Part shown: positions 13,862 through 41,447 of the stretch, one piece after another
Layout of the letters: each line of letters opens with the position of its first letter
Numbering within the stretch: position 1 is the stretch's first letter
Assembly (NCBI GenBank): GCA_024403415.1
Contig: JAKSRY010000021.1
Coordinates: forward strand, 1-41,447
Direction of reading: 5' to 3'
Length of the DNA: 41,447 nucleotides
DNA from: Lachnospiraceae bacterium
Lineage (GTDB): Bacteria; Bacillota; Clostridia; Lachnospirales; Lachnospiraceae
Made by a program: the position numbers and the translations under genes
The notes under the pieces: model-generated
What the model was told of the DNA's origin: nothing
Database searches by the model: none
Seen by the model: the letters and a program-made list of their open reading frames with translations, nothing else

Positions 13862-13887
13862 ATTGTTTTACTCCTTATAATTATGAA

Positions 13888-14316: not shown

Positions 14317-14373
14317 ATTCTCTTCCTCTCTCTGTACCTTTATAATGCACTATGTATAGTCCAAATATTTACT

Positions 14374-23030: not shown

Positions 23031-24301
23031 GATTGAGGTACCTCCTTCTTGCCTGTAACATATTCGTAGATGAGTGATTTTTTATATAATTCCAGCTCTG
23101 ATAGCATTTTTTCTTTGTTTTCAATGAGTCCATCTATTTCACTGCATTTTGCATCTAAATATTCAGCAATCTCGTGCTGTTCATGTACGGGTGGTACTGC
23201 TATGCAAAAGTTAAGAAACTTATCTGCTTGCAATCGCCATCTTCCCAAGCCACTTACACCTTGCCCCAGTCCATAGAAAATCTTATTGCTATAACACATT
23301 TGCATCATATACAAATAGTAATGGCTATCATTTTTTTTGTCATTTAATACAAATACTCTATAGTCAGGGCTAGTTACACCTTCATATTTTGATATATCAA
23401 CCCAGCCTGTAAGTAGATCCATATGGTTCATAGCAAAATCCCCAACGTGGACTAATTGATAATTCGAGTAATTTTCAGCTAGCTGCCCTTCATTTTTAGA
23501 CAAGTCCTTTGGCTTTATACCTTTTTGTGTTATTGATAAAACAGTATGTCCCTCTTCACCTGCTATATCTTTCTGAATATGGAATACATATTTTAACCTG
23601 TTCATTTCCCAATCGACAGGTATTTCTCCAAACCAAACACTTCCACTATCCTTCATAGGACGTTCACCACGAACACCCTTTGTTACTGCTTCAGTAATAA
23701 CCGCTTGCTTTAATTTCTTGTATTCTTCAATAGATGCTTTGGTCTTTTCTATAACTGCATCTATGTAGGCACATTGTTGGTCAAGGTAATCTGCTATCTT
23801 TTGTTGTTCACGCATACTAGGCGAAGGAATTTTAAACCCAACTACCTGAGATGCGTTTATTGCAGGGTAACTAATTCCTACAGAGAACGCTTCGACCATA
23901 CTGATAAATGAATGAGCTAGAATTCCATATTGCAGAAAACTTGCATTAACATTCTTGGGTCTAATGACAACAAATCCTGTTGATGCTACCTGACCATCTA
24001 AGGTAACCTTTGCAACCGCCTTTAAATACGTTCTAACTGTGGATACAATAATGTCATTTTCCCTAACTATGCGACGCGCTCTTGATGGAGCATTTTTAAA
24101 TTTCATATGTTCTGTCCCTGTAATACCTTTACCATACTCCACAGAACCTATTTCAATGTAATCGAACTCATAATCATCATCTGTTGTCTCACCTAAAGTT
24201 TCATCATTATATGATGCTAAATACTTCAGTGGAATCATTTCCCATGTCTCTGGTATCTCACCAATCCATTCAATTCCTGAATCTTTCATTTGTCTGGCCA
24301 T
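23027..24301 (-). CDS. hsdS: Type I restriction specificity subunit (HsdS)
   Basis: The 424-residue subunit sets the target sequence for HsdM and HsdR. It has two target-recognition domains, each opening with the same signature: KDSGIEWIGEIPETWE near residue 6 and KDSGSVWFGEIPVDWE near residue 220. Each is followed by the conserved helical spacer (QQKIADYLDQQCAYIDAVIE near 180 and QHEIAEYLDAKCSEIDGLIE near 390). Two domains indicate a bipartite target, but its bases cannot be read from sequence. Start is the ATG one base after the hsdM stop, behind GGAGGTAAC; an ATG 27 bases upstream lies within hsdM. No second hsdS or inverted repeats for phase variation are present. Confidence 0.95.
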   Translation of the reverse strand: MARQMKDSGIEWIGEIPETWEMIPLKYLASYNDETLGETTDDDYEFDYIEIGSVEYGKGITGTEHMKFKNAPSRARRIVRENDIIVSTVRTYLKAVAKVTLDGQVASTGFVVIRPKNVNASFLQYGILAHSFISMVEAFSVGISYPAINASQVVGFKIPSPSMREQQKIADYLDQQCAYIDAVIEKTKASIEEYKKLKQAVITEAVTKGVRGERPMKDSGSVWFGEIPVDWEMNRLKYVFHIQKDIAGEEGHTVLSITQKGIKPKDLSKNEGQLAENYSNYQLVHVGDFAMNHMDLLTGWVDISKYEGVTSPDYRVFVLNDKKNDSHYYLYMMQMCYSNKIFYGLGQGVSGLGRWRLQADKFLNFCIAVPPVHEQHEIAEYLDAKCSEIDGLIENKEKMLSELELYKKSLIYEYVTGKKEVPQS

Positions 24302-24302
24302 A

Positions 24303-26060
24303 TTAGTTACCTCCAAACAATGCATCAAGACTTGACTGTATATCCAGCTCTAATTCATGCAATCTAGTTGCAATTCCTTCTACTGGTTCAGGTGCCTGAT
24401 ACTCATAGAAATATCTTGTCATAGGTATCTCATATCCAACCTTAGTCTTCTTCTTATCTATCCATGCATCTGGTGCATAAGGTAAAACTTCTCTTTCAAA
24501 ATATGTATCGATGTCTTCATTAAGTGGCACATTCTCTGTATCTCTAAGTGAAGCATCTGCCACTGGTTTATTCTTTTTAAGTACAGGCTGTCCATTCTCA
24601 TCTTTTTCGGGCTGTTCTACAACAATCTTACTGTAACCAAATTCTGTAGAATCAAAAATCTTGCTGTGACAGTAAACTCCATCCTTGTCACCATAGATTT
24701 TGTCATCAGAAAATTCACCATATGCTTGAGAGATTAACTCTCTACATAAGTCAGTAATATCATTTCTCTTTGTTCCAATAGATTTTCTTCTAGCCTCAGC
24801 ACAGTGTGACGCATCAATAAGCTGAACCTTACCTGCTCTATGTGCTGGCTTATTCTTGTTAAGTACCCAGATATATGTATTGATACCTGTATTCATAAAC
24901 ATATCAGTGGACATCTGAACGATAGCATCAAGCCAGTCATTTTCTAATATGTATCTTCTGATTTCAGAAGGTCCACTTCCAGCATCTCCAGAGAATAACG
25001 GTGAACCATTCTGTATGATTGCCATCTTTCCATTGGTAGCAAGCTTTGATAAACCATTGAGTACAAATAACTGCTGTCCATCTGATATCTTAGGAAGTCC
25101 CGGTGCAAATCTACCAAGTTCACCCTTTGCTGCTTCTGCCTCAACTGCTTTCTGCTCACGTTTCCAATCAATACCAAAAGGTGGATTAGAAATAATATAC
25201 TGGAACTGGTAACCACTAAACTGGTCTTCTGATAATGTGTCACCAAATCTCATATTGTTAGGGTCTCCACCACGTATCATCATGTCAGCCTTAGCAATAG
25301 CATATGTAGAAGGATTAAACTCCTGTCCAAAACAAGTGACATCTATCTCGGTATTTAGCTCATGGATTCGTTCTTCCATACAACTTAACATCTGCGATGT
25401 ACCCATAGCCATATCATACACAGTTACATTACCACCTTGAGATAAGTCTGCATCTGAAAGAAGTATATCCGTCATAAGATAAATAACATCTCTACTTGTA
25501 AAATGTGCTCCTGCTTCTTCACCAAATGATTCAGAAAACTTTCTGACCAACTCTTCAAAAATGTATCCACAATCTACTGTGCTGATTTTATCTGGGCCTA
25601 AATATCCCTTCTGTGAGTTAAACTCTTTTATAACAAGATATAGGGTATTAGACTCAACCATTCTCTTTATGATATTGTCAAAGTCGAATTTAGCAAGTAC
25701 ATCCTGTACATTGGCTGAAAATCCATTCAAATAGTCTCTGAAGTTTGCTTCGATATTTTCTGGATCTGCAAGCAATGACTCAAAATTATACTTACTAGTG
25801 TTGTAAAACTGATAGCCAGAGGCTTTTGTTAAAAAGCCATCAATTACAGCAAAACCTTTCACTTTCTCATACTGTTCCAGCACATCTTTATGAGTAGGCA
25901 ACAAGCAATCATGAAATCTTTTAACAACTGTCATTGGCAATATAACCAAACCATACTCATGAGGCTTAAATGGTCCTGCCAAATGTGTTGCTACATTCCA
26001 TATTACTGATGCTTTTTCGCTTATATTAGTTCCAACAATATTAAATTTTTCGTTTGCCAT
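24303..26060 (-). CDS. hsdM: Type I DNA methyltransferase subunit (HsdM)
   Basis: The 585-residue N6-adenine methyltransferase subunit has an N-terminal HsdM helical domain, then the catalytic fold with motif IV NPPF (SNPPFGIDWK near residue 293). Motif I, normally DPxCGxG, here reads VYDMAMGTSQMLS near 215, a variant I believe recurs in a Clostridia HsdM subfamily. Further blocks GQEFNPSTYAIAKADMMIRGG and GDAGSGPSEIRRYILENDWLDAIV are well kept. The start is supported by AAAGGAG. First gene of the hsdM-hsdS-DUF262-hsdR operon. The 127-base gap before it (26061-26187) should carry its promoter, but no strong -35/-10 pair stands out, so readthrough from the helicase operon is also possible. Confidence 0.95.
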   Translation of the reverse strand: MANEKFNIVGTNISEKASVIWNVATHLAGPFKPHEYGLVILPMTVVKRFHDCLLPTHKDVLEQYEKVKGFAVIDGFLTKASGYQFYNTSKYNFESLLADPENIEANFRDYLNGFSANVQDVLAKFDFDNIIKRMVESNTLYLVIKEFNSQKGYLGPDKISTVDCGYIFEELVRKFSESFGEEAGAHFTSRDVIYLMTDILLSDADLSQGGNVTVYDMAMGTSQMLSCMEERIHELNTEIDVTCFGQEFNPSTYAIAKADMMIRGGDPNNMRFGDTLSEDQFSGYQFQYIISNPPFGIDWKREQKAVEAEAAKGELGRFAPGLPKISDGQQLFVLNGLSKLATNGKMAIIQNGSPLFSGDAGSGPSEIRRYILENDWLDAIVQMSTDMFMNTGINTYIWVLNKNKPAHRAGKVQLIDASHCAEARRKSIGTKRNDITDLCRELISQAYGEFSDDKIYGDKDGVYCHSKIFDSTEFGYSKIVVEQPEKDENGQPVLKKNKPVADASLRDTENVPLNEDIDTYFEREVLPYAPDAWIDKKKTKVGYEIPMTRYFYEYQAPEPVEGIATRLHELELDIQSSLDALFGGN

Positions 26061-26187
26061 AATTAATTCTGCTCCTTTTATATGTAAAAGATTGAGTTCA
26101 ATTTGAAAGTAAAATCATATACCTAGATATTTTTTCGTATAAATACCTTTTTTCAGCACATAAATCACTTAAACTAATCAAAACACT

Positions 26188-29100
26188 CTATACTTCGTTG
26201 AAATATTGCTGAACATCTTTCCATACTTCTGAAATTGCATAATTACACAAACGATCAGAAATATAGATATTGTTATTGCACTTATCAATATTATATATTG
26301 CAGAATAGAAAATCACTTCTTTATTGTTTATAAAATACTTTCCATTCCTTTTCGTAATCATATACTTTGTTTCATGTAAAGAAGCAATTGCGTTTAGTCT
26401 CTCAACAAATTCTTCTGCCACTTTTGTCTCGATTGTTGGATTCACAAAACCATTTCTTATGAATTCAACAAACTTCATACCTAAAAATCTATCCAAATCT
26501 TCTTTATATTTTTGATTGCCAAAGTGTTGTATACAGTTAGGACAAGCTGTTGAGCAATCACATTCAGACAATATTTTAATAATTCTATCAAATATGTTAT
26601 CGATGAATTGACTTGCTCTACTTGCATATCCTGCACCCGAGCTTAAGCTATCATACAGATACACATCTGCATATAATTGTGTTCCTGCCATTCTTAATCT
26701 ATAGCCAGATTTAACATCGGTGTATTCGACATCCAATTCCCTACTAGTAGCAAGAGCTAATGCTTCAGCAAAAGTAGTAAGTGCTGGAATTAGCCATATC
26801 TTATACGGAGAATATAAATCCAACTTCGACGCATCCAATTTTATTTCCATGACCATCATATCTGTATTAAATTCATATCCTAAAAAGACATTCTTATAAT
26901 CATGAAAGCACTTTTGTGTGTCGTCTTTATAATATGGTATTTTATATGGTCTCTTCCTTTGCATCCTTTCCTTTTCAGAAACAGTAGCCGGTTCAATTGC
27001 TCCACATGTATAGCACAGTTCAAAGCCTTCATTATTAGGGCCTTGATTAACCATAACCAATTTCTGATTTTCTCTATTCTCTAGCTCTATATAACCAGAA
27101 GTACCAATCTTTTTTAATTCATGCCCTGATGGTAATGAAGCATATGAAGGTTCACTAGCATACGAGAGTTCCTGCATGTCTTGAGTTTCGGGAACATTTC
27201 TCCCGTTTCTTGCAGAAAATCCCCACGGTTTAATCATCTTATGATCTTCTAATTCATTTCCACACAAAGGGCAAGAATCATACTTGGCATCAACGCCAAA
27301 CCATCCACATAATTCACTCTTACAACATCTAACTATTTTTTTATTTTCTTCCAACTCAAGCCATGGTTTTGCGGCGCTATATTTTTCTTCTCGCTTAAAT
27401 TTCGTATAGTAGTTGAATAATCCTCCTGAAATATAAGTTTGTTTATTAACAACCAATCGCCTTCCGGGTGCATATTCACTCAAAGCAATATCTATACTTC
27501 TATCAGGACTTTCAACAACTACACCATCAAGGTTCTCAATCCAAAAATTGACTATATTCCTCGGAAAACTATAATTAGGAAGCATTCCTTCTGAAAACAA
27601 AACATCCATGAGCATGTATGTATTTGACCTATTATCTTCATTTTGTATAGGACTATATACAAACTCTGCTTCTTCGACTTTTCTCTTTAAGCCTTCCATT
27701 TTATTAAATAATTCAGACTTATATTCTTCCCAATCTAATCTACCATTAGGGATTATTCTCATCATTCTTTCGGTTTCTATTGGAGTATTAAATTCAACCC
27801 ATTTCAAGAAGTCCTTATAGTTAATATCTTGTGAACTATTAAAGAAATCAATTGTATATATCTCATCTAAACCTACTGCTTTTCCCCTCAGATATTCTTG
27901 AAGAAAAACAAGATTTACATGTCTTCGAATCAGCTTAGAATTGTCAGCATCTATCCACGGAATTCTTGGGCTTCCAGATATAATATCTTTCGGATGATTA
28001 AAATACCATGCATCATGAGGTCCGTTCTCAGTGTATGTTACAATTGATGAAACAGCCGCACCAGCTCTTCCTGCTCTACCTGCTCTTTGTTGATAATTTT
28101 CTCGCATTGGCGGAACATTTCTAAGGCCTACACTTGTTAATGAACCAATATCGATTCCCACTTCCATAGTTGTTGTACAACTAAGAACATCTATCGTTTC
28201 TTTTTCTTCTCCAACGGTTATGTCCCTAAATTCCAATTCGTATTTTTCTGTTGTACCCCAAACTTCTTTGTTTGAATCTTTATGCGAAAGCTGTGCAGTA
28301 TGTTCTTCAGTGATAATATTCCTAATCTTTTCACCTTCAATTGCCTTAAACACAGGTTTAGTCCATAACAAATATTGTGTCAGTTTAGATTTGTCTACTT
28401 CTTTTATATGTTTCTCACTTCCACAATATATACAATGTCCCCATAAGGTATATGTTGACATTCCAGAACATCTCTCACACTTATACCAAGTTGAATTCTC
28501 ACTTGTTTTTAATTCAAGCCTTGTTCCCATGATAAATCTTCTCTTATGCCCTCTGGTATTTGTATCCATCACCTTGGCAAGCCCCTCAAAACGCATAAGC
28601 AATTCATTTATTGATTCATCACTAATATTTCTTTCTACAAGTACTCTTCTTATATGTTCTGGGAATTTTAATTCTTCATCAATTCCAAGTTCTCCGCTTT
28701 CATATGAGCGTGTATTTCTCCTTACTTCATCTGGTATTTCTGGAAATACCGCAATTCTTCTAACCAATAGATATTGGATGAATGCATTATAGATATCACG
28801 AATTTCGTCAAAGGATAAATTTGTATTTTTACTAACCTTCTCGAGAATATCCTCTTCAAGATCCTCCCCTGCTTCACCACGTTCTGCTAATACAATCTGA
28901 CCCAATCCTAAATTATTATACGACCTAAAATTATCACTTATATTCTTAAGTAATAATTGATAAAACATCATAGGAGGGGTACCAATACTATCCTTCATTC
29001 TCCTGTACTTCATTCTTGAAGGTTCTGTATCCCCATAAAAATCGTCATATAATTTAAGTTGCTTCCTAAATAGCTCTTTTTCGTCTCCATAGAAGAACTC

Positions 29101-31467
29101 AAGTTCATTATCATAGACAACTTTCAAAAAAGCATAATATAAAAGATCGACGGTTTTTGAAGAATCCCTACTTTCATCTAGATATTTCTGTGCAAGAAAA
29201 ATGGCCTGTCTGCCAGCATCACCATCCGATGAAATAGTCATATCACGAGCCAATGTGGCAGCTCTTTGACGACTATCAGAAAATAGCAAAACTTTTCTTC
29301 CTTCATTCTTCAATTCTGGATTTTTAATAACTTGTGATTCAAACTGCTCTCTGACAATATTGGCAAAAGGTTCATTACCTCTTGTCACAAATGAAGTAAC
29401 TCTATTTTTATCTTTTCCACAATTAGGACAGGTTCCAAATGTGTATGCCTTACAAGAATCGTCATACAAATCGGTTCCTGGTATCAGTACCTTGATATAC
29501 CCGTCTTCACCCGCATATGACTCGTCTTCAAAAAGCATGCCATTTTTTGAGTTAATATATCCAATAACAGAATTATCTTTTGATTTTCCTTTTATTTTTC
29601 CTATCTTAAAGAAATCAGTTCTTTTTTCTGGCATTAACCACAAATGAATTTCTTGTGGGTCTTTTAACAATTTATTTTTTCTAGGCCATAAAAAATGGAA
29701 ACTTTCAAAATCATAATCATGCCTATCAATAAATGCCTTTATATACAACGTACCGCATTTTCTATCCATCATTAATTCAAACATTCTTGAACCACAGCAT
29801 GGGCAAAAGTCTGTATTTTTATCTGAAATATGTCCCAATTGTATCCCCATTCCAGAATGAGATTCAGTGCAATTTGGGTTTAAGCACGCAAAAATACCTT
29901 GCAAACCTCGGAACATCATATGAACCTTGGATCCCAAGAGAATCTTTCCCGTCGAAGATTTCGCCATTATTCCTAGTTGCAAAACTGCTTCAAGCGCTTT
30001 TTCTGCCAATTCAGATGGCACTTCATCCAAAAAAGATTCTTTTGCAATATCTTTTAGTGCCTTTCCACCGGACTGACAAACAAGTAGTACTTTTTTAAAT
30101 ACTCTTTCAGAAGACAACGTATCATATAACCATAACCTTATTGAATCTTCATCATCTTCTGGCATACACCCCACATTATTCCTTTGAGCTATTTTTCTAA
30201 TCTCTTCATATTGTTTAGAAATACTTCCTTGTAAATTTTCTAATGATAAGCTTGCATAAAACGAGGCATCTTCCATTGTTCCTCGACCATCATCAACGAT
30301 GCTCTCGATTGTTTCCCTAATAATAGAAAAACTCTCATCCCCATTTCTTCCTGTTAATTCATTAGCAAACTTTTGGATTGCATCATCATTATCTGTAGCC
30401 ACACTGGCGCTAGTCAAAATACACTGTATTTTATCTGCATCGATTCCTAACCTATCCATAAGCCTTCGAATAAGCAACGAAACCTCACCGCCTGGTGCCC
30501 CTCTATACATATGAGCCTCGTCAATTACCAACAATAATTTGTTCTCTTCGTTACAATTAAGCCAATCGATTGTCTTTTCCCAAATGATTGACTCAATCGG
30601 ACGCATCAACATATATTCAAGCATACTGTAGTTTGTAATCAAAATATCTGGACAAATATGCTGCATCTCATATCTTGTATAGAGTTCGGCGTCTCGCGCA
30701 TTAGTAGCCTGAGTTCCCGAAGCCAAATGATTGGCAAATTCTTCAAGATTCTTTGAAGGAATTCGGCCAATTTTTTCTAATTCAGAAAGTGAAGGATTTT
30801 TAAGGTAGTTATCCCTGATTACTTTAGCCAACTTCTTGTTTTTCTCATAATCATTACTACCCGCATACGGTGTTCTTCCTGTGTACATTCCAAATCTTGC
30901 ACGTCGGCATTCTGTGTTTTGAGAAAGGATAGTGTGATATGCATCATCTTTTCTACCAATGATGTTTCGCATTCGACCAAGTTGATCTGAAACTAAGGCA
31001 TTCATTGGATATAAAACTAAGGCTCTTATTCCCTCTTGTTTCCATGATTTTTTTCTATTGTGTGCTTCTAAAATTAATTTAGTCAAAATAGGCCATAAAA
31101 AGCACTCCGTTTTGCCTGAACCTGTACCAGTAGTAACAATAATATTCTTATCCGAAAAATAATTTTCCACTGCCTTTATCTGATGAAGAAAAGGTGTTTT
31201 ATATACACCAAGTTTTTTATCAGCCAGTTCTTCTAAAATAGCTTTAACTTCAGCATTAATATTAGCTTCAGCAAATCCTATAGGTGATTGCTTATATACT
31301 TTGGCTATTTCAACATATGGCTCTTGATATATTACTCCAGCAGTATCAAGTAATTCATTTGAAACACTTAATAGTAAATCATTCTCGGCAAAATATTGTG
31401 CCTTAATATAATCTGCTAGCTTTCCTTTTAAATTGTCATGTGTTTTTCGAATACCAATTTCAGGCAT
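26188..31467 (-). CDS. Large DEAH helicase with DUF1998-type C-terminus
   Basis: A 1759-residue SF2 helicase. Helicase lobe 1: TTGTGSGKTECFLWPIL (Walker A, near 112), LVLYPMNALVSDQ, LLVIDEAHMYRGAPGGE (near 315), LTSASVAT. Lobe 2: LLFSDSRQRAATLARDM, SCTTTMEVGIDIGSL, and QQRAGRAGRAG (arginine finger block, near 1126). Several zinc-ribbon pairs are inserted: CLNPNC/CPCC near 527-556, CERC/CIYC near 998-1014, CPLC near 1400. The last 200 residues have the DUF1998 pattern (SSGAGYASRA, then CDCSTACPNC near 1640). This architecture is shared by DruE (Druantia), MrfA and DrmA/DrmB-type proteins. Start at the ATG behind ATGGAGG; another ATG 12 bases earlier overlaps the upstream stop. Last gene of a coupled four-gene operon. 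Confidence 0.9.
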   Translation of the reverse strand: MPEIGIRKTHDNLKGKLADYIKAQYFAENDLLLSVSNELLDTAGVIYQEPYVEIAKVYKQSPIGFAEANINAEVKAILEELADKKLGVYKTPFLHQIKAVENYFSDKNIIVTTGTGSGKTECFLWPILTKLILEAHNRKKSWKQEGIRALVLYPMNALVSDQLGRMRNIIGRKDDAYHTILSQNTECRRARFGMYTGRTPYAGSNDYEKNKKLAKVIRDNYLKNPSLSELEKIGRIPSKNLEEFANHLASGTQATNARDAELYTRYEMQHICPDILITNYSMLEYMLMRPIESIIWEKTIDWLNCNEENKLLLVIDEAHMYRGAPGGEVSLLIRRLMDRLGIDADKIQCILTSASVATDNDDAIQKFANELTGRNGDESFSIIRETIESIVDDGRGTMEDASFYASLSLENLQGSISKQYEEIRKIAQRNNVGCMPEDDEDSIRLWLYDTLSSERVFKKVLLVCQSGGKALKDIAKESFLDEVPSELAEKALEAVLQLGIMAKSSTGKILLGSKVHMMFRGLQGIFACLNPNCTESHSGMGIQLGHISDKNTDFCPCCGSRMFELMMDRKCGTLYIKAFIDRHDYDFESFHFLWPRKNKLLKDPQEIHLWLMPEKRTDFFKIGKIKGKSKDNSVIGYINSKNGMLFEDESYAGEDGYIKVLIPGTDLYDDSCKAYTFGTCPNCGKDKNRVTSFVTRGNEPFANIVREQFESQVIKNPELKNEGRKVLLFSDSRQRAATLARDMTISSDGDAGRQAIFLAQKYLDESRDSSKTVDLLYYAFLKVVYDNELEFFYGDEKELFRKQLKLYDDFYGDTEPSRMKYRRMKDSIGTPPMMFYQLLLKNISDNFRSYNNLGLGQIVLAERGEAGEDLEEDILEKVSKNTNLSFDEIRDIYNAFIQYLLVRRIAVFPEIPDEVRRNTRSYESGELGIDEELKFPEHIRRVLVERNISDESINELLMRFEGLAKVMDTNTRGHKRRFIMGTRLELKTSENSTWYKCERCSGMSTYTLWGHCIYCGSEKHIKEVDKSKLTQYLLWTKPVFKAIEGEKIRNIITEEHTAQLSHKDSNKEVWGTTEKYELEFRDITVGEEKETIDVLSCTTTMEVGIDIGSLTSVGLRNVPPMRENYQQRAGRAGRAGAAVSSIVTYTENGPHDAWYFNHPKDIISGSPRIPWIDADNSKLIRRHVNLVFLQEYLRGKAVGLDEIYTIDFFNSSQDINYKDFLKWVEFNTPIETERMMRIIPNGRLDWEEYKSELFNKMEGLKRKVEEAEFVYSPIQNEDNRSNTYMLMDVLFSEGMLPNYSFPRNIVNFWIENLDGVVVESPDRSIDIALSEYAPGRRLVVNKQTYISGGLFNYYTKFKREEKYSAAKPWLELEENKKIVRCCKSELCGWFGVDAKYDSCPLCGNELEDHKMIKPWGFSARNGRNVPETQDMQELSYASEPSYASLPSGHELKKIGTSGYIELENRENQKLVMVNQGPNNEGFELCYTCGAIEPATVSEKERMQRKRPYKIPYYKDDTQKCFHDYKNVFLGYEFNTDMMVMEIKLDASKLDLYSPYKIWLIPALTTFAEALALATSRELDVEYTDVKSGYRLRMAGTQLYADVYLYDSLSSGAGYASRASQFIDNIFDRIIKILSECDCSTACPNCIQHFGNQKYKEDLDRFLGMKFVEFIRNGFVNPTIETKVAEEFVERLNAIASLHETKYMITKRNGKYFINNKEVIFYSAIYNIDKCNNNIYISDRLCNYAISEVWKDVQQYFNEV

Positions 31468-31478
31468 AGAATCCTCCA

Positions 31479-32504
31479 TTATGAGACAACAACAGCTCCA
31501 AGATTTACTATTTCATTTATAACCAACTGCTTAAATTTAGCAGGAAATACACGAGAAAATTTTGCATCACAATGCAAATTTGGCCATGATAAACTATAAA
31601 GCAACTTATTTTCATACTCTGGCAATCTACTTGGATATTTCAATACAAAGTAATCTCCCATATCCTTCATCTTAAATTCAGCAGGCGTTTTGTTACTCCT
31701 GTTTAAAGCGTACATAATTCTATATTCTTCGCGATTATCCATATACCAAGGGTCCAGAGTAGATATTAATTCCCTTCCAGCTTCTTTCTTTAACAGAAAA
31801 TAACCAGGTTCAAAAGTATTCATATCTCTTAAAAGATATAATCCATCCTCACACTTTTCTTTATCAAACGGTACCCACGATTTAGCATAACGACCTTTCA
31901 TGCCAACCTTAAAAATTTCATATTGACCAACAATACGCCTTTCACTCCAATCAAAATGTTTACGTATATGTTCACAATAATCATCACCACTAATGGAGAT
32001 TAATCTATTCGGCTTTATAGCTTCTTTATTTTTACTCTCAGACCATTGTGATAAACCAATTGAGATGCAATTTCTATCATAAGTACTATTCCCAAATACA
32101 TGAATCCATTTATCATAAGCTACACTTTTTGCCGGTACTGGAGCTAATAATCTACCATCTATTTCAGCAATTTCTCCCAAATATATCATTTCCTGAATGA
32201 TTTCACCTGCCAAAACACTTGCCTTGTCTTTATCCTCATCATTTATCCACCCATCCATTGTAGGGAATAAACCCAAAAAACCACTGGCAACTTTATATAA
32301 GTAGCTCTGAACGTACATTATATCTGGAAACTTTTTCTCTATATCGGAAGAATAATCACTTATAGAATTTCCATATAACAACGTCCTCACCCAGCATGCT
32401 AATCCTGAATATATAAGACGCTGATTATATTCCTTTTCCATTTCCTCTTCATATTTAAAAATATTTAGATCAATTGACATCTGTCTTTTCAAAGTATTAT
32501 TCAT
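31479..32504 (-). CDS. Helicase-operon component of unknown family (341 aa)
   Basis: A 341-residue soluble protein with no motif I recognise: no P-loop, nuclease, methyltransferase or membrane signature. It is helical at the N-terminus (residues 10-120, for example EEEMEKEYNQRLIYSG) and then mixed alpha/beta with many aromatic residues (WVPFDKEKCEDGLYLLRDMN, YSLSWPNLHCDAKFSRVFP). Its ATG overlaps the stop of the coiled-coil gene (ATGA) and its TAA shares a base with an ATG of the helicase frame, so it is translated in step with both. It is about the size of a DNA-end or adaptor subunit, but that is a guess. It belongs to the operon and presumably works with the helicase. Confidence 0.7.
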   Translation of the reverse strand: MNNTLKRQMSIDLNIFKYEEEMEKEYNQRLIYSGLACWVRTLLYGNSISDYSSDIEKKFPDIMYVQSYLYKVASGFLGLFPTMDGWINDEDKDKASVLAGEIIQEMIYLGEIAEIDGRLLAPVPAKSVAYDKWIHVFGNSTYDRNCISIGLSQWSESKNKEAIKPNRLISISGDDYCEHIRKHFDWSERRIVGQYEIFKVGMKGRYAKSWVPFDKEKCEDGLYLLRDMNTFEPGYFLLKKEAGRELISTLDPWYMDNREEYRIMYALNRSNKTPAEFKMKDMGDYFVLKYPSRLPEYENKLLYSLSWPNLHCDAKFSRVFPAKFKQLVINEIVNLGAVVVS

Positions 32505-34369
32505 TGTTCTATACTTTCTAACAATTCCTCTGATATTTTTATTTCATTTTCAATCAAGTTGTTTTTTAGTATCTTCTTTTGATTAGCATCTAATAGAACC
32601 AATGTTTCAAGACTCAGCAAATCTTCATATACCTTTTCCTCATTATGGTCTGTCAATTCCATTATTCTTGAAAGTATATATCCTCTTGTCTGTGGATACA
32701 TATCTGAAATATTTATCCCTTTCAGCAACTTCAAAACATTTTTATGGACATTGTTCGTTTTACCTATTTTATAAACAGGAAATACCTGTGATGAATCGGC
32801 GAAAATCAACTCCCCTATGTTTTTCATAGAAGTTACATTCACTTTCAATAATTGAATGTAATTGTAGAAGTAATGATATACATATTTGATACATTCAGTA
32901 CTTTCTGCACATAGAATAATCTGCTTGTCTATTTCTTCTCTAAAAACAGGCAACAGTATTTCCTCATTCATACGTCCAAACGCATCTTCAATAATAACAG
33001 TCTTTGTATCTGCTTCTTTGATTGTTTCTATTAACCCATCGGTGCCATCACAGCCAATGGATATAGAGATTATTGTAGGTCTTTCAGCATAACGAACCGC
33101 AATCAGCGCTTCTGCTACACGTCTAGAACCAAAACCACACAATAATGGTACTAGCCCAATATCAATTGCTGCATTAAAATAATGATCTATCGAACTATCC
33201 TCTGGCTCATTTCCTACAACATCCATATTGATTCCCACTGAAACATTATACTGTTTATACTTTTCATATTTTTCAGCTTCCGGAACAGCTTTTCCTTTAT
33301 GAACTAAAAAAGAGTTTGAAGCTATTTCGTCTAATTTTGGGAGATTATTTTCTTTACTATTATCTAGCATGAGCTCCTTATTAATATCATTATTTTCTTC
33401 AAGTTGCTGAAGAATTTCCTTTTGAGTCTCTATTTTTTCTTCAGTACTCAACAATTCTTCCCGCATCTTGGCTATTTGTTCTTCAAGTTCTTCTTTTTTC
33501 TTAATCAGCTTCTCTTTTTCTTCTTTTAATGCATTATTAGTAATAATCTGTTCTTTATTAGCTCTTTCAATTTCCCTCTTCCATTCATTTTTATATTTTT
33601 CTTTATCTTCATCGAATTTATGAGTCAGTCGTTCTATTTCTGATTCCTGATTACTAATGATTAACTTATTTTCCTCAATAGTCTTTTCATGCTTAACTAT
33701 TGTCTTTCCCATATATTCAATATCTTTGTTCAATTTGGAAATACTACTTGAATATTCTTTTCGTAGTTCTTTTACTGTCCTATCATGCTCCAATCCCTGT
33801 TCTTTTAATGCTCTCGCAATTTCCTCTTGCTTTAATCTCTCATATTCTTCTTTCTTTAATTTTTGCTTCCATAGAAACAATATTTCATTTTTTCTTCCAT
33901 CTTCTATATCAACATCAGACAGTTTTAGTTGCAAAAAGAATAAATCAATGTCTATTTTGTTGAATTCATCCATCAACTCAAACTCTTTAAGGATTTCCAC
34001 ACACTTTATTGGCTCCATATCCTTAAAATTTTCTGAAGTTAATTTTTCTTTTTCATATGTTTTCAAAAAATCCTCAAAATTATTTCTTATGGTGTCCACC
34101 TGATCAAAAATAATTTTTTTAATCATAAAATCGTCATTCATATACAATTTGAATATTATATTGGGCAAATTTTTCTTAACATTCTGGTCTCCTGGATTCA
34201 TTTTACCTAACAAAGAGATATATTTTGAATATGATTTTATGTGTTTCTTAAAAGGAACCAGTAAAGTATCTAATCTAATTTCACTAATGACCAATCTAAC
34301 TTCCTCTTCAGTCAAAATATCTGAATAATCATTTAAGGATTTATTCATTACAATATTGTTCATTGTCAT
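32501..34369 (-). CDS. Coiled-coil protein with degenerate ATPase-like domain (622 aa)
   Basis: Three parts. Residues 1-165 are helical. About 170-345 form a long charged coiled coil (heptads such as KKEEYERLKQEEIARALKEQ). About 350-622 look like a RecA/AAA-type core that has lost its nucleotide site: PLLCGFGSRRVAEALIAV near 405 stands where a P-loop GxxxxGKS would be but lacks the Lys, followed by TVIIEDAFGRMNEE near 455 (Walker B-like) and QIILCAESTE (sensor-like). This resembles the shape of McrB- or SMC-like defence proteins but is not assignable. Bases 33814-33905 recur exactly at 36442-36533. Coupled by ATGA overlaps to both neighbours; GGAG lies before its start. Confidence 0.75.
   Translation of the reverse strand: MTMNNIVMNKSLNDYSDILTEEEVRLVISEIRLDTLLVPFKKHIKSYSKYISLLGKMNPGDQNVKKNLPNIIFKLYMNDDFMIKKIIFDQVDTIRNNFEDFLKTYEKEKLTSENFKDMEPIKCVEILKEFELMDEFNKIDIDLFFLQLKLSDVDIEDGRKNEILFLWKQKLKKEEYERLKQEEIARALKEQGLEHDRTVKELRKEYSSSISKLNKDIEYMGKTIVKHEKTIEENKLIISNQESEIERLTHKFDEDKEKYKNEWKREIERANKEQIITNNALKEEKEKLIKKKEELEEQIAKMREELLSTEEKIETQKEILQQLEENNDINKELMLDNSKENNLPKLDEIASNSFLVHKGKAVPEAEKYEKYKQYNVSVGINMDVVGNEPEDSSIDHYFNAAIDIGLVPLLCGFGSRRVAEALIAVRYAERPTIISISIGCDGTDGLIETIKEADTKTVIIEDAFGRMNEEILLPVFREEIDKQIILCAESTECIKYVYHYFYNYIQLLKVNVTSMKNIGELIFADSSQVFPVYKIGKTNNVHKNVLKLLKGINISDMYPQTRGYILSRIMELTDHNEEKVYEDLLSLETLVLLDANQKKILKNNLIENEIKISEELLESIEQ
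33814..33905. repeat. 92-bp direct repeat, copy in the coiled-coil gene
   Basis: Identical to 36442-36533 in the same orientation. It encodes the start of the coiled coil (RKNEILFLWKQKLKKEEYER). The other copy is fused to a GNAT fragment. Confidence 0.92.
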
Positions 34370-35940
34370 AGCAAACTCTCCAAATCTTTTAGTATCTCAA
34401 CTGCTCTAAGTGGCATCTTCCCATTAATTTTCCACTTCATCAAATATTTGTATAATTCTGGTATTTCACTTTTTGTTATATCAAGCCATTTATCAACTGA
34501 TTCATCTGTTTCGATCAATTTACCATGGCAATGATAAATTTTGAAAACATAATCCTCATAGTCAATTCTCTTTTTACTATCTTTTTTTTCTATATTATCA
34601 GTCACTTTGGGAACAATTACTTTATTTCCAAAAGGTTCAAAAGACAGCATCAGCATGTTGTCTTTAGGTAACTCATCAATTCTTTTTGAAGCACTTTTTT
34701 TAACATAATTATCTCGAAAAGAAATGATCTGAGATTTATAATTACTATTCAAAAGAATTGGATTTTCAAAAGATTCATTCAATAAATTATCATCAAAATC
34801 TACATTTCTGCCATCATCCAGTCGAACAACTGCATTGTATTCAAACACACGATTTCGAGTAAAATTATCTCTATTGTGTGTAAGAAGATATCTAATTTCT
34901 TTTGCATAGATATTGAAACTATAATCCGACATAAGTAACGAAGTGTTAATAGTTGAACATTTTAATATATTCTCATTTTCGTTTAGCTTATACGGAATAG
35001 CATTCCCCCACCAAAACACTTCCTGATTAGCTTCCTTTTTGTGATACATATATGCTTCACGATCATTGTCATGATATATGAGTTCTTTTCCTTCTATTAC
35101 TGCTGGAGGCCATAAAGGAACCAATTCATCACTTTCATTTATAAGTTGATATCCTTTACTCTGTATATATGCTATAGACTCATCAGTAATCTGAGTCACT
35201 TTCACAGAATAAACATCATATTCTATTGAAAACGTTTTTCCTGGAAATTCAAATGTTCCTTTTCGTTCAAAGTGTAGTCCATTCTTATTTTTGATTGTTC
35301 CTCTATTATGGACAAATAAATATTCATTTCCAACAACTATATTAGCTAATTGCCCTACTCTCACTCCCCCAGAGTTATCCACCTTGAATAAATCATTGTC
35401 AAAATCCAATCCCCTAAATCCAAGAAACCATTTTCTCCTTATTTCTTCATTAAACGTCTTGAAATTATCTGGTTTTACATATATCCATCTAGCGCTTGTT
35501 TTAAGCCTATATTTTCTGAAATTCCATGCACTAAAAATTTGGTCACGACCATCATCAATTACTCTTATTTTTCCATCTACATCTTCGATTTGTTTCATCG
35601 TACTACTACTTAGTGGCGGAAAAAGAGCCACTATTTCGTATTTATTATTACTTCTTTCTATCAGATGAAGTGGAACTCCTCCATTAAAAATACATATTCT
35701 ATCTTCATTACTATTAATAGACCCATTTGGGGTGCCATTACTTGTATATCCTTCACATGCCATTTGTTGCGGAGTTCTATTCGAAATTGGATTATGTGCA
35801 AAATAAGGAGCTCTAACTCTCCCCTTTCTAACATGTATATCTTCTTTGCAAAAAAAACATTTATAAGTGGAATACGGACTGGCATTTTGGGCTGACACCT
35901 TTCGACCATATCCATCTATTCCGTATTCTATCGAAGCCAT
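34366..35940 (-). CDS. CoiA-like zinc-finger protein, first gene of the helicase operon
   Basis: A 524-residue protein. The N-terminus carries a CoiA-like zinc module: YKCFFCKEDIHVRKGR (C28, C31), then APYFAH (H49) and C62, the C-x2-C, H, C pattern seen at the start of competence CoiA-like proteins. The remaining 450 residues are beta-rich with many aromatic residues and no catalytic motif I can identify; the PD-(D/E)xK nuclease block of true CoiA is not apparent. The start has GGGGGAAAG just upstream. It shares an ATGA overlap with the coiled-coil gene. As leader of an operon ending in a DEAH/DUF1998 helicase it may recognise foreign or single-stranded DNA; that is inference. Confidence 0.75.
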   Translation of the reverse strand: MASIEYGIDGYGRKVSAQNASPYSTYKCFFCKEDIHVRKGRVRAPYFAHNPISNRTPQQMACEGYTSNGTPNGSINSNEDRICIFNGGVPLHLIERSNNKYEIVALFPPLSSSTMKQIEDVDGKIRVIDDGRDQIFSAWNFRKYRLKTSARWIYVKPDNFKTFNEEIRRKWFLGFRGLDFDNDLFKVDNSGGVRVGQLANIVVGNEYLFVHNRGTIKNKNGLHFERKGTFEFPGKTFSIEYDVYSVKVTQITDESIAYIQSKGYQLINESDELVPLWPPAVIEGKELIYHDNDREAYMYHKKEANQEVFWWGNAIPYKLNENENILKCSTINTSLLMSDYSFNIYAKEIRYLLTHNRDNFTRNRVFEYNAVVRLDDGRNVDFDDNLLNESFENPILLNSNYKSQIISFRDNYVKKSASKRIDELPKDNMLMLSFEPFGNKVIVPKVTDNIEKKDSKKRIDYEDYVFKIYHCHGKLIETDESVDKWLDITKSEIPELYKYLMKWKINGKMPLRAVEILKDLESLL

Positions 35941-36070: not shown

Positions 36071-36533
36071 TTAATATACCATAGTTTCGTTATCCATTAC
36101 AGTTTTCAGCAATTCCTTCCTATCAATCCTGTACTGTAAAACCATGCCTATAAGTTCCTCAGGCTCACATAAAAATTCATCTGCTAAACATACTATATGT
36201 TCATCAATCATACTGAGATTTTCTTTTCTGAACTCTTCCAATTCTTCACCATGAAGCACGAACTCGGTTATTCCATCTGGATATGCACCAAGACCTCTCA
36301 ATAATTTCTGTGATGGTTCATTATCGATATCAATCAGAAACTTATAAAAACGATTCCCTGTTATTTCAGTGACTTTATTCATGAATAAAGTTAAAGCATT
36401 TGTTCCATATCTTTTATTTCTATATTCCTCCAGCAACTCAATCGCAATTTCCTCTTGCTTTAATCTCTCATATTCTTCTTTCTTTAATTTTTGCTTCCAT
36501 AGAAACAATATTTCATTTTTTCTTCCATCTTCT
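36071..36533 (-). pseudogene. Chimeric remnant: coiled-coil fragment fused to a GNAT acetyltransferase C-terminus
   Basis: The 5' 92 bases (36442-36533) are an exact copy of part of the coiled-coil gene (33814-33905). They join in frame (EEIA then IELLEEY) to the back two-thirds of a GNAT-type N-acetyltransferase: EEYRNKRYGTNALTLFMNKV is the acetyl-CoA-binding motif (Gly replaced by Arg in R-x-x-G-x-G/A), followed by FYKFLIDIDNEPSQKLLRGL. The N-terminal strands of the GNAT fold are missing. A stop codon precedes the copied piece, there is no ATG, and only a TTG could start it. It is most likely a dead recombination product. Confidence 0.75.
36442..36533. repeat. 92-bp direct repeat, copy in the GNAT remnant
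   Basis: Exact copy of 33814-33905; see that entry. The repeat ends abruptly on both sides, with unrelated sequence beyond. Confidence 0.92.
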
Positions 36534-36586
36534 TAGTTAGGTAAAATACAATAATATTTCAAAAAATTATAATTTAAAAACATGAA

Positions 36587-37009
36587 TCACCAGTTTTCCC
36601 AATAATCCTCTGCATCACTGCCATCGGGCATGTAACCATCCCAGTCATCCATGAACTCATCATAATCTTCATAGTCATCACAATCAGGCATTTTATATGA
36701 CTTCTTCGAAGAAGTTGAAGATGTTGAATATGTCTTCTTACTTGATTTCGAAGAAGCACTTGATGAGCTACTGCTCTTCGAACTTGAGTAAGATGACTTT
36801 GATTTAGAAGTATTATTCTCAGTAAATGGCTTATGAAGATAACAATATAAACTTCCATATGCAGCCGTACTTCTACATCCAGACTTAATACAAGTACTTC
36901 CAGATGAAGAAGAATTACCTGTTTTTCCAATATTTCCTATTATGCAGATAATAGAAAAAACTATTATTACTATTTCCAATAATCCGATGTTTGATTTGTT
37001 ATTCTTCAT
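36587..37009 (-). CDS. Ser-rich membrane-anchored protein, copy 2
   Basis: The 140-residue paralogue of the gene at 13888-14316: the same N-terminal hydrophobic helix, the STCIKSGCRSTAAYGSLYCY segment, the Ser/Lys linker (a few residues shorter near TYSTSSTSS), and the acidic tail (DEFMDDWDGYMPDGSDAEDY). Differences are concentrated at the two ends, while the central 218 bases are identical. The upstream block 37076-37099 matches 14341-14364 with one mismatch. No strong ribosome binding site directly before the ATG, but GGGGGAACATTAAT is near. It brackets the right side of the defence island. Confidence 0.8.
   Translation of the reverse strand: MKNNKSNIGLLEIVIIVFSIICIIGNIGKTGNSSSSGSTCIKSGCRSTAAYGSLYCYLHKPFTENNTSKSKSSYSSSKSSSSSSASSKSSKKTYSTSSTSSKKSYKMPDCDDYEDYDEFMDDWDGYMPDGSDAEDYWENW
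36729..36946. repeat. 218-bp direct repeat, right copy
   Basis: Right partner of 14036-14253: identical, same orientation, 22.7 kb apart. Confidence 0.9.
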
Positions 37010-37200
37010 ATTAATGTTCCCCCTAATCTATATATCTACAACTTCACCTATTGTTATTTAACTTCCTTGTATCTATATAATGCACCATGTATAGTCCAAT
37101 TATTTTCCCTTTTGTTACCAAGTGGCTTAATTAATGAGATTATCTGACCTAATCATCTGATTATCCATTTAGAGACAATAAATTATTGCTTTCAAAAATA

Positions 37201-37302: not shown

Positions 37303-37953
37303 CTATTCAACATAAAATTCCTTAAAATCTTCCAACCTCAAACATCCTAATCTTCCGGATTTATATCCGGCTCCACAGTCAATTAGATAAACATTCTCGA
37401 TATCGTTTTTCCAAATAAGATTTCCTGATGGATTATAATGTCCGCAAACAGATATGTATCCTTCAGTTCCTTTTTTATAAAAATTCTCATCACCATACAT
37501 ATATACTGATTTATCACAAATTACACCGGGTTTCGTTGTCATTGCATGTGCTAGTAAAAATATATGTTTTCCTACCTCAATCTCTTCTTCAAATGACCAG
37601 TTATAAATATTTGCTGCCAATCTCAGCATATCGGCTACAGGTAATCGATTACTAAGAATTTCAAAAGTATTATAACGATATTCCGGAATCTTCTTTCTCT
37701 TTTTCTCTGGTGTATTGTAGTATGCCAAAATATAATCAGCTAATAAATAATCATGATTTCCTGCAAGTACCTTACAACTGTCTTTCAATTTTAAAATTTC
37801 ATAATATACTTCCAACGGCTGAGGATTGTAATCGCTTCTATCAAATATATCCCCTAAAATATACAGCTTATCGCCCTTTGAAAAATCAATCTTTTTTAAT
37901 AGCTTAGTAAATCTTTCATAATTGTTATGAATATCAGCTACAACATAATGCAT
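37303..37953 (-). CDS. Calcineurin-like metallophosphoesterase
   Basis: The 216-residue protein has the metallophosphatase motifs in order: VVADIHNN (D7, H9), LGDIFDRSDY (D35, D38, R39), VLAGNHDYLLA (N66, H67, D68), then LAHAMTT and ISVCGHYNPSG supplying the later His ligands. It belongs to the group of serine/threonine phosphatase-like and Ap4A-hydrolase-like enzymes. The substrate could be a phosphoprotein or a dinucleotide and cannot be fixed from sequence. Start chosen at the ATG behind CGGAG; the frame is open 78 bases further upstream without a ribosome binding site. Single gene with its own terminator. Confidence 0.88.
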   Translation of the reverse strand: MHYVVADIHNNYERFTKLLKKIDFSKGDKLYILGDIFDRSDYNPQPLEVYYEILKLKDSCKVLAGNHDYLLADYILAYYNTPEKKRKKIPEYRYNTFEILSNRLPVADMLRLAANIYNWSFEEEIEVGKHIFLLAHAMTTKPGVICDKSVYMYGDENFYKKGTEGYISVCGHYNPSGNLIWKNDIENVYLIDCGAGYKSGRLGCLRLEDFKEFYVE

Positions 37954-38299
37954 TATTACTACTCCGTTAAACTTGAAACAAATAATGGTGCTACAAACTG
38001 CATAGAAAGAGTATCCGCGTGCATCTATCAAGTCGTGACCACCCTTTGTGACACTTCCATTTATTTGGTAATAATGATTTAATAACCCGCAATCAAATAA
38101 AAAAATGCGATTGCTTACTGGTTATTATTTTCAACTTTTCAAATTATTTTTATTAAAAATAGAGTGTCACCGATACCGCAACGATACTAAAAAGTACCAA
38201 GACCTTTGGGAACAACTTCTATAAGTAAATTTGTACCTTTTATAATTTGTGCTTATGCAATAAATTACGATCCACACCGAAGCTTAAACTTAATCTGAC
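37954..38299. other. Intergenic stretch with an imperfect stem-loop
   Basis: No gene of credible length. An interrupted hairpin at 38081-38126 pairs AATAACC with GGTTATT and GCAATC with GATTGC. It lacks a clean T-run on the minus strand, so its role as a terminator of the 38300-39325 gene is doubtful. Confidence 0.4.
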
Positions 38300-39325
38300 T
38301 TATTTTGCAAATATTCCATAATATTCTATATCATTTCCCAAAAGTGACAGTTTAACTGAATTTTCAAAGACAAATCGAATAGCCGCTGGTAAATCTTCTT
38401 TATCAGATGCGGCTCTGATTTCATCATTGCCACCAAACGGATAATCCCAGGTTTTATCAACAGATATCTCAGAAATCTTTTCTCCCTCAAATTGTTTATA
38501 AAATAAGCTTTGACAATTCATAAATGAGTCTTTAATATAAGGTTCTCCATATTTCTCAACATCATTTGGCACATAATCAGATACCCGTTCTATGGCGCTA
38601 TATGTTATGTTTTCTAGTATTCTATATTGAAACAGACCCATAGCATGAATGACAATATCTACAGCAAAATCATCAAATATAAGTACAATTGACCCGCAAT
38701 CTTCAAACCCTATACTTTCTGTTTTTTGGGGATAATTATGCTCAAAATGACCTATATAGTCATGTAGGTCTATCAATAACATCCTAAGTGTTTTTCCTTC
38801 AATCAACACCTTGAAAAGCTTTTCGAAATCAGTAGCCGAATATATCCATTTATACTCAACAAGTGTATCATCAGGAATGGGAACTTTTATATAATCCAAT
38901 TTGCCATATCTGTTCCAGTCAATTCTGTTAAACTCATCTTTAATATTTTTAACAAAATTCTTTAATCTTTCACCTGACAAGTCAACTTTAATGGTAACAC
39001 CTGCATGGTTATAAGGCGTATATTCAGCAAATAGATGTAAACAATCATCAATATTTTCCAATCTAAAGAAAGGAAACTTTCTATCTTTTATAATATATTT
39101 TTCTTTTTTAACATCATTATTGTAGAAATCGTCAGCATGTTTAATTATTTCTTCATACGCACTCTTTTTATATATAAAAAATCCAATATAATGACCGGTT
39201 TCAGAGGTAATCTCAGTTCTAATAAAAGGATTACGTCTATTATTATCTGTATTGATGTATTTATGCATTGTGATATGCACATAATCTTCTATAATAATTT
39301 GTTCATTATTTTGATATATACTCAT
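38300..39325 (-). CDS. Hypothetical protein (341 aa)
   Basis: A large soluble protein, rich in aromatic and acidic residues, without signal peptide, membrane helix or recognised motif. Segments such as DDFAVDIVIHAMGLFQYRI and LRMLLIDLHDYIGHFEHNYP suggest an alpha/beta fold. The general style (cytosolic, acidic, single gene between unrelated genes) is like many immunity-type or orphan proteins of Firmicutes, but this is not evidence of function. Two starts compete: the ATG at 39325 (MSIYQNNEQ) has AAGGGATG some 11 bases upstream, while the ATG at 39337 is too close to it. Confidence 0.6.
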   Translation of the reverse strand: MSIYQNNEQIIIEDYVHITMHKYINTDNNRRNPFIRTEITSETGHYIGFFIYKKSAYEEIIKHADDFYNNDVKKEKYIIKDRKFPFFRLENIDDCLHLFAEYTPYNHAGVTIKVDLSGERLKNFVKNIKDEFNRIDWNRYGKLDYIKVPIPDDTLVEYKWIYSATDFEKLFKVLIEGKTLRMLLIDLHDYIGHFEHNYPQKTESIGFEDCGSIVLIFDDFAVDIVIHAMGLFQYRILENITYSAIERVSDYVPNDVEKYGEPYIKDSFMNCQSLFYKQFEGEKISEISVDKTWDYPFGGNDEIRAASDKEDLPAAIRFVFENSVKLSLLGNDIEYYGIFAK

Positions 39326-39391
39326 AGCAAACCACATCCCTTGAACAATATTGGTTGTAGATTATTTCCTTCTTCAAATTAGCTTCACTTA

Positions 39392-40144
39392 CTACATTCT
39401 TCCTTTATGGTAATACCAAATAAGATGGTCAAAACCATTTCGACTTATCAGTTCATCAGCAGAATATCTTATTTCATCTATTTCTTTACGATATTCTTCA
39501 TATTTACTAAGGTCATACTTTTTCTTGTCAATCCCGTAATATTCAAGGTACATTGGAAGATTTTTTCTTAAAATACTATCATAGATAGAATAATTATCTT
39601 GATATTCCGTTCCTTCAAAAAGATAAAAGCATGCATAATGGCAGAACTTGCTTGCAAAAGATGGATTATACCTTGCTCTGACTTCAGCTGATGTCTTTTT
39701 TTCAATTGCATGAAAGAGTTCCAAATCACCATGCTCGGGATTCTTTAAACATTCGATCAACTTATCTTTGCCGAAGTTATATATTCTTCTTGCTATTTCT
39801 TCTCTTCCACAACGGTCTGCATTAAGATGTGTACTGTTCTCCCTATCAACAGCTTCTATAGTTCGTTTTATAGTTTTATAATACGAATATCCCTCTGCTG
39901 TCTTGTCAGAAATCATTTCTTTAAGTTTAGTAAACCAAAAAGCAGCAGAGCCCTTGTAATTACTTTTATTATCCGGACCTGCGTCCTTTTTTGAGGATTT
40001 TATATAGTCAGAATCGTTCATTATCATAGCTTCGACAATAGCAACATTCTGCTTTGTCAATTTGGCAAGTGTATGACTACCAAACGTAACCTCTTCGACC
40101 ATAAATTTATTTGCTAAACCAAGTTCTTCTGTAATCAGATTCAT
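39392..40144 (-). CDS. Hypothetical protein (250 aa)
   Basis: A 250-residue soluble, helical protein of a family I cannot name. Conserved-looking blocks are RYNPSFASKFCHYACFYLFE and a C-terminus NGFDHLIWYYHKGRM. The SFASKFCHY block faintly recalls helix-hairpin-helix glycosylase-like proteins (8-oxoguanine glycosylase OGG fold), which would mean DNA-base repair, but no catalytic Lys/Asp pair is evident. The start is the ATG behind AGGGG at the usual distance; a TTG 54 bases upstream is not supported. It is followed by the 341-residue gene and preceded by the ADP-ribosylglycohydrolase gene, with gaps of 66 and 123 bases, so the three may be one transcript. Confidence 0.6.
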   Translation of the reverse strand: MNLITEELGLANKFMVEEVTFGSHTLAKLTKQNVAIVEAMIMNDSDYIKSSKKDAGPDNKSNYKGSAAFWFTKLKEMISDKTAEGYSYYKTIKRTIEAVDRENSTHLNADRCGREEIARRIYNFGKDKLIECLKNPEHGDLELFHAIEKKTSAEVRARYNPSFASKFCHYACFYLFEGTEYQDNYSIYDSILRKNLPMYLEYYGIDKKKYDLSKYEEYRKEIDEIRYSADELISRNGFDHLIWYYHKGRM

Positions 40145-40267
40145 GACTATATCCCCTACACTGCACAATCTTTCATTAACTCCATTATATCTTAACAATG
40201 GCGTCTTTCAAATCTACGACTATAACTGACTTATTTTTATTGCTAAACATATAGTTTCTTATTCGAT

Positions 40268-41239: not shown

Positions 41240-41447
41240 CTGCATCCACCTTTCTTTAATAAACATGCCGGTTAATATCTTATGCACCCATTATACATAC
41301 TCTGTGTTACATACCGGTCGCCTCAAAAGCGACTAAGTAAAATCAGAATATTTCATATCTTTCGCATTCCCAAAGAGGTACTTGCAAGTGCAGTTTTGTC
41401 GAAAGTATGTTTGTAAACTCACTTATTATTTATAAGGCGTTAATGTC
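41240..41447 (-). promoter_or_regulatory. Upstream region of the ADP-ribosylglycohydrolase gene
   Basis: On the minus strand TATAAT (plus 41290-41295) stands about 50 bases before the start codon and could be a -10 box; the -35 is not convincing. A small dyad, GTCGC-7 bases-GCGAC, lies just upstream (about 41319-41335) and might be an operator. Nothing else is seen to the window edge. Confidence 0.3.

Follow-up and report, generated by a model that had tools for sequence, protein, structure and literature searches.

The four-gene helicase operon at positions 26188–35940 of the window (the whole stretch of DNA analysed, 41,447 nucleotides (nt), from a Lachnospiraceae bacterium) raises the question of whether it encodes an undescribed defence system, as a preliminary description proposed, or a form of a known one. 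The operon almost certainly belongs to Druantia type I; in particular, PADLOC and profile matches together with the standard gene order identify it as the DruB-C-D-E part of this type, and since no DruA match was found it is a variant and not a strict type I member. The best explanation, held to be probable, is a variant of Druantia type I that lacks DruA and works as proposed in the last section.

Identity and conservation of the four genes

The four genes lie on the minus strand, and all four open reading frames (ORFs) are open. The druB homologue (34366–35940, 524 amino acids (aa)) is followed by the druC homologue (32501–34369, 622 aa), druD (31479–32504, 341 aa, with no recognised domain), and druE (26188–31479), which encodes a superfamily 2 (SF2) DEAH helicase with an MrfA Zn-binding domain; coordinates, order, and strand agree with the preliminary description. 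Overlaps of 4 nt join druB to druC and druC to druD, also as described. From its first ATG, at 31479, druE encodes 1763 aa and overlaps druD by 1 nt; from the second, at 31467, with GGAGG just 5' of it, the product has 1759 aa and a gap of 11 nt separates the two genes. The overlap of one base thus holds only for the first start, and its combination with a length of 1759 residues mixed two start choices.

The operon was compared with its relatives at 108 mapped loci. The tree of 95 DruE proteins, built with FastTree and not a careful phylogeny, consists of 92 rows plus three viral outgroup rows and omits two duplicates (L067 and L102) as well as 11 distant viral loci. One copy each of druB, druC, druD, and druE is present in 78 of the 92 loci, including the window, and the remaining 14 include contig-end cuts, split genes, and loci with one partner unrecognised. 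Order and strand are the same in 75 of the 78 single-copy loci (the exceptions being L072, L085, and L088), with median spacings in the conserved loci of −4 nt for druB/druC and druC/druD and −1 nt for druD/druE; given this constancy of order, strand, and spacing, the arrangement is not due to chance. In a 397-genome sample of the family to which the window belongs, DruD (E ≤ 1e-5) and DruE (E ≤ 1e-100) occur in exactly the same 10, so that the homologues are inherited together. DruB is present in those 10 genomes and in six others, where only G415 (78% complete) has a nearly full-length match and the other five have short partial ones; the near-complete match (L143, G415:C162:394–1947), in a genome whose DruE search was empty, possibly reflects a fragmented contig or a DruB without DruE.

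In PADLOC, the druE product is DruE1 (PDLC00013, 1833.9 bits, residues 7–1761), with lower scores for DruE2 (630 bits), DruE4 (550), DruE3 (520), and DrmA (47). Pfam recognises DEAD, Helicase_C, and MZB (the MrfA Zn-binding domain), and 6znp is among the solved relatives; the MrfA/Druantia-type helicase first proposed for the four-gene unit is therefore confirmed. The P-loop, the DEAH box, and motif VI are kept in all 92 DruE proteins examined, the window included, and no product of the four genes other than DruE is recognised as an active enzyme.

The partner proteins are also of the Druantia type. The 341-aa protein, listed at first as unknown, is DruD1 (PDLC00008, 3.5e-14, residues 3–339); the zinc protein is DruB1 (PDLC00005, 3.8e-7), with a match over residues 6–67, that is, the zinc ribbon only; the PADLOC DruC1 model found no match in the 622-aa protein. 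When profiles from the DruA-less clade described below (window first, 25–33 rows) were compared by hhalign with those of the other, mostly DruA-bearing lineage (10–12 rows), matches were obtained for DruD (99.2%, 1e-19), DruB (99.4%, 6e-22, 273 columns), and the C-terminal half of DruC (97.8%, 1e-12); the position of DruC in the operon is also the same. The claim that no named system has this partner set thus falls, since each partner has its homologue in Druantia type I (DruB, DruC, or DruD), and the search with profile hidden Markov models (PADLOC, Pfam), advised as the check on novelty, returned a named system, a result of the refuting kind. The claim of novelty is reduced to the absence of DruA and to the coupling with methyltransferase (MTase) or restriction-modification (R-M) genes in part of the clade. 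A new system sharing only the helicase with Druantia would agree with the silence of the DruC model and with the confinement of the DruB match to the zinc ribbon; however, DruE and DruD match the Druantia I models over nearly their full length, profile comparison links all three partners to the DruA-bearing lineage, and the gene order is the same, so that this alternative is highly improbable.

In DruB, a CoiA-like zinc ribbon is followed by beta-rich domains that are weakly Ig-like and by a C-terminal helical region, as predicted by AlphaFold2 (AF2; pLDDT 81, pTM 0.62). The CoiA-like zinc module noted earlier is recovered by Pfam CoiA_N at 26.0 bits, just under the cut-off of 26.3, and only at the N-terminal zinc ribbon; this confinement speaks against DruB as a nuclease by way of its CoiA-like part. 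No nuclease is prominent for DruB among the 50 Foldseek matches listed of 612 or the 50 of VIA-align, which cover mainly residues 268–362. DruC has a helical N-terminus, a coiled coil at about residues 157–324, and an AAA+-like core at about 355–613 without a P-loop; the predicted structure of the C-terminal region has an AAA+ fold, and the best fold matches of the window protein are AAA+ proteins of the RavA/MoxR type. Since the Walker A P-loop (GxxxxGK[ST]) occurs in none of 85 DruC proteins, DruC is predicted to be a dead AAA+ ATPase (pseudo-enzyme) on a coiled coil, in keeping with the degenerate ATPase core proposed initially. Against PDB sequences, the DruB and DruD profiles found no match and the DruC profile gave coiled-coil matches; PHROGs returned no match for DruB, DruC, or DruD.

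PMC13192584 describes Druantia as a helicase common to the subtypes, each of which has partners of its own. With type I the window shares homologues of DruB, DruC, DruD, and DruE in order and a DruE1-type helicase; it differs in that no druA was found (in operon, assembly, or clade), in the silent DruC1 model, and in the adjacent R-M genes. Druantia II, Druantia III, DISARM, Dpd, and MrfA were ruled out as the best label by the PADLOC scores. Type III has a helicase of the same family and a fast-evolving Ig-like partner, DruH (PMC13192584), to which the weakly Ig-like window DruB can be compared; in contrast, the DruE3 score is far below the 1834 bits of DruE1, the window has four genes, and no DruH is among the PADLOC matches of its three partner proteins. 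According to a passage of PMC12458937, the DruE of type III carries PLD nuclease domains. Type II (DruM/F/G/E) also shares the helicase family, and its coiled-coil partner with an inactive NTPase, mentioned in the same source, resembles the window DruC by description; no DruM, DruF, or DruG is among the complete PADLOC lists of the three partners or the 25 of 33 families listed for the helicase, and the RavA/MoxR-type fold matches of the window DruC count as a further difference.

DISARM is defined by DrmA, DrmB, and a methyltransferase. DISARM and ARMADA share with the window a YprA-family helicase and, in some relatives of the DruA-less clade, an operonic MTase; DISARM differs in that DrmA scores 47 bits against 1834 for DruE1 in the window helicase, and DrmB is not among the PADLOC matches of the window partners. 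Neither a BrxHII-like helicase nor a PglX-like MTase was recognised by Pfam beside the window operon, where HsdM, HsdS, GmrSD, and HsdR lie downstream and further ORFs upstream. The repair helicase MrfA/YprA shares with DruE the DEAH core and the MrfA Zn-binding domain; it has 751 aa, less than half of the 1763 aa of DruE, which unlike MrfA sits in a defence operon.

Absence of DruA

Both PMC13316683 and PMC7251935 give type I Druantia as the five genes DruABCDE. DruA (PF14236) was detected neither in the operon nor in the window assembly, which is 87% complete. The first PF14236 genome search is weak alone, because 14 control genomes were silent too; the search itself works, as in a run over 12 DruE-bearing genomes it matched G330 (3.2e-84), and in the other 11 whole genomes no DruA was found. 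The DruA cluster comprises 14 of the mapped loci (labels were assigned by sequence cluster, with L095, L080, and L023 checked by Pfam), and the DruE tree places them in two outer groups, one with 3 rows and the other with 13. The other 76 rows, including the window, form one clade with a support of 99, in which no DruA was found and which spans several phyla in the sample; the nearest rows to the window are L060 (62% identical DruE), L027 (Clostridium bowmanii), and L028. Of the 71 loci in which druB is present with 2.5 kb or more of upstream sequence, 60 lack DruA; 58 of these belong to the clade, whereas L083 and L087 do not. Because DruA is found neither in the 76-row clade nor in 11 of 12 whole genomes, its absence looks old and inherited. 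By lineage comparison, seven short stretches of DruE (6–21 residues, the longest of 21) are mainly of the DruA lineage.

Several points limit this reading. The sampling favours the window, since 80 of the loci are the best-scoring of 567, and this also skews the proportion of loci without DruA towards it. DruA does not always lie beside druB (it is at −1 in 6 of the 14 DruA-bearing loci), contigs can end early, and the whole-genome test covers 12 genomes. Viral contigs gave no relatives in a first scan and 16 loci in a second, of which L107 and L108 belong to the DruA-less clade, L109, L110, and L112 form the outgroup, and 11 were omitted.

The window could also hold an incomplete Druantia I whose druA has been lost, the operon being in decay or inactive. 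The definition of type I by five genes favours this, as does the upstream gene remnant at 36071–36508 (minus strand), which occupies the position immediately before druB that druA has in the six loci just mentioned, and joins a broken C-terminal GNAT fragment to a duplicated piece of druC. In this remnant an exact 92-nt copy (36442–36533) of druC 33814–33905 (codons 155–186) is fused in frame to the truncated GNAT gene; the upstream copy looks derived, because the copy in druC aligns with homologues, and the duplication looks either recent or an assembly artefact. The upstream flank has no match in five congeneric genomes. However, the fragment is not a degraded DruA, as ordinary GNAT models match it (below cut-off, 4.5e-4) and no DruA model does; Pfam DUF4338 is called a GNAT domain in part of PMC10853773. 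Moreover, the four genes are open, the helicase motifs of DruE are kept, and the old-looking absence of DruA extends over the clade, all of which makes this alternative quite unlikely.

The reading as a Druantia I variant without DruA is thus still preferred, and the novelty sits in the DruA-less clade rather than in the window. No description of a DruA-less Druantia I was found in the open-access literature searched, supplements excluded. A natural lineage of this kind suggests that DruBCDE is a unit inherited together and makes the role of DruA testable by comparison.

Methyltransferases and restriction-modification modules beside druBCDE

Flanking ORFs of at least 130 aa within four genes of the operon were counted at 89 loci. 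An MTase was found in 31 of the 76 clade rows vs none of the 16 other rows, and it belongs to different types. A D12 adenine MTase follows druE at 15 loci, with a spacing of −4 to +53 nt in 14 of them (7 nt in L075) and of 282 nt in L021, where the ORF is shorter. A C5 MTase occurs at 11 loci, in 10 of them at position −2 before druB; a restriction endonuclease (REase) is at −1, of the Eco47II type at seven loci and of the EcoO109I type at three (Pfam on representatives), with a spacing to druB of −4 to +50 nt in all 10 C5 R-M loci. An N6-type MTase alone is present at five further loci, the window among them. D12 and C5 labels were assigned by cluster, with L017, L013, L084, and L107 checked by Pfam, and N6 labels by motif, all six Pfam-checked.

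In the window, the type I R-M operon has the order hsdM-hsdS-GmrSD-hsdR on the minus strand. The gene hsdM (24303–26060) encodes a type I adenine methyltransferase (N6_Mtase, HsdM_N) and begins 127 nt after druE, so that the restriction operon indeed stands directly downstream, as the preliminary description had it; it also stated, correctly for the four genes, that a methyltransferase is lacking, but the very next gene encodes one. It is followed by hsdS (23027–24328, specificity subunit, Methylase_S), a GmrSD-type nuclease gene (20922–23030, GmrSD_N and GmrSD_C), and hsdR (17905–20925, HSDR_N, SWI2_SNF2, and T1R_D3-like). A consensus scan of 25900–26320 found no terminator-like site, and hsdM is possibly co-transcribed with druE, to judge from this arrangement. 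The GmrSD-type gene lies inside the type I operon (17905–26060), with 4-nt overlaps with both hsdS and hsdR. At L028 (15581–20286) two Eco57I-type methyltransferase genes lie downstream of a close relative of the window operon, and the larger of them carries an HSDR_N domain.

These neighbourhoods bear on a further alternative, in which DruBCDE attacks unmarked DNA as in DISARM and BREX and the R-M, D12, or C5 module is an integral part of the system. The close spacing of the D12 genes and of the REase genes of the C5 sets argues for it, as does the window hsdM with no terminator-like site before it; in addition, DISARM and ARMADA couple related helicases to a PglX-like MTase, according to part of PMC12458937. 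On the other side, 45 of the 76 clade rows show no MTase within four genes, 24 of them with both flanks present; the MTase types differ; and the C5 cases include an REase, so that the R-M pair may act alone. Part of the association may be ordinary clustering in defence islands; type I and IV R-M systems are enriched near some Druantia III clusters, according to part of PMC13192584. For the D12 and C5 branches the operonic spacing argues for more than island clustering, and the DruA-less lineage hints at the recruitment of some branches into R-M operons. On balance this alternative is doubtful.

Loci with both flanks present comprise none with DruA and an MTase, 9 with DruA only, 21 with an MTase and no DruA, and 26 with neither (Fisher p 0.019, kinship ignored); on the DruE tree DruA changes three times and the MTase 11 times, and the three independent pairs are too few for an exclusion test. 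The stronger proposal that DruA-less DruBCDE is a separate, methylation-licensed Druantia type, in which an exchangeable MTase or R-M module (D12, C5 with REase, or type I) replaces DruA, is likewise rather unlikely; if true, the clade would link Druantia with the methylation-based DISARM, BREX, and ARMADA.

Proposed working and surroundings of the window operon

For Druantia type I no mechanistic study was found in the open-access literature, whereas mechanisms of type III have been worked out. Beyond the observed gene identities, operon conservation, lack of a DruA match, active-site motifs present or absent, and predicted folds, the working proposed for the DruA-less variant is a reasoned guess, held tentatively, for which we infer sensor, scaffold, and effector roles and a link to methylation. 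DruB, DruC, DruD, and DruE plausibly form one putative complex. DruB, as a fast-evolving protein with a zinc ribbon and weakly Ig-like domains, would sense a phage product or structure, and DruC, with its coiled coil and dead AAA+ core, would form with DruD a non-catalytic scaffold that relays the signal. DruE would then load on phage replication intermediates containing single-stranded DNA and unwind or remodel them with ATP, so that replication stops. DNA cutting, if any, would be carried out by neighbours or host enzymes, since none of the four proteins was recognised as a nuclease; the adjacent MTase or R-M module (type I in the window) may mark self DNA or supply the nuclease.

The contig suggests a mobilisable element, because a MobA/MobL-type relaxase is encoded at 7809–9632; distant DruE relatives occur in 12 plasmid records. 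Direct repeats of about 440 nt (13875–14319 and 36574–37012, 87–95% identical), which encode a small protein rich in serine, lie on either side of the region with the HNH, type I R-M, and Druantia genes, and a third copy lies on another contig (G000:C39:13861–14401). The HNH endonuclease (16282–17502) has a C-terminus like that of phosphorothioate-dependent restriction enzymes (NF045808, 42 bits against a cut-off of 180). At the upstream edge, a calcineurin-like phosphoesterase (37303–38031) and an ADP-ribosylglycohydrolase (40268–41287) are encoded, with adjoining unknown ORFs at 38300–39337 and 39392–40198.
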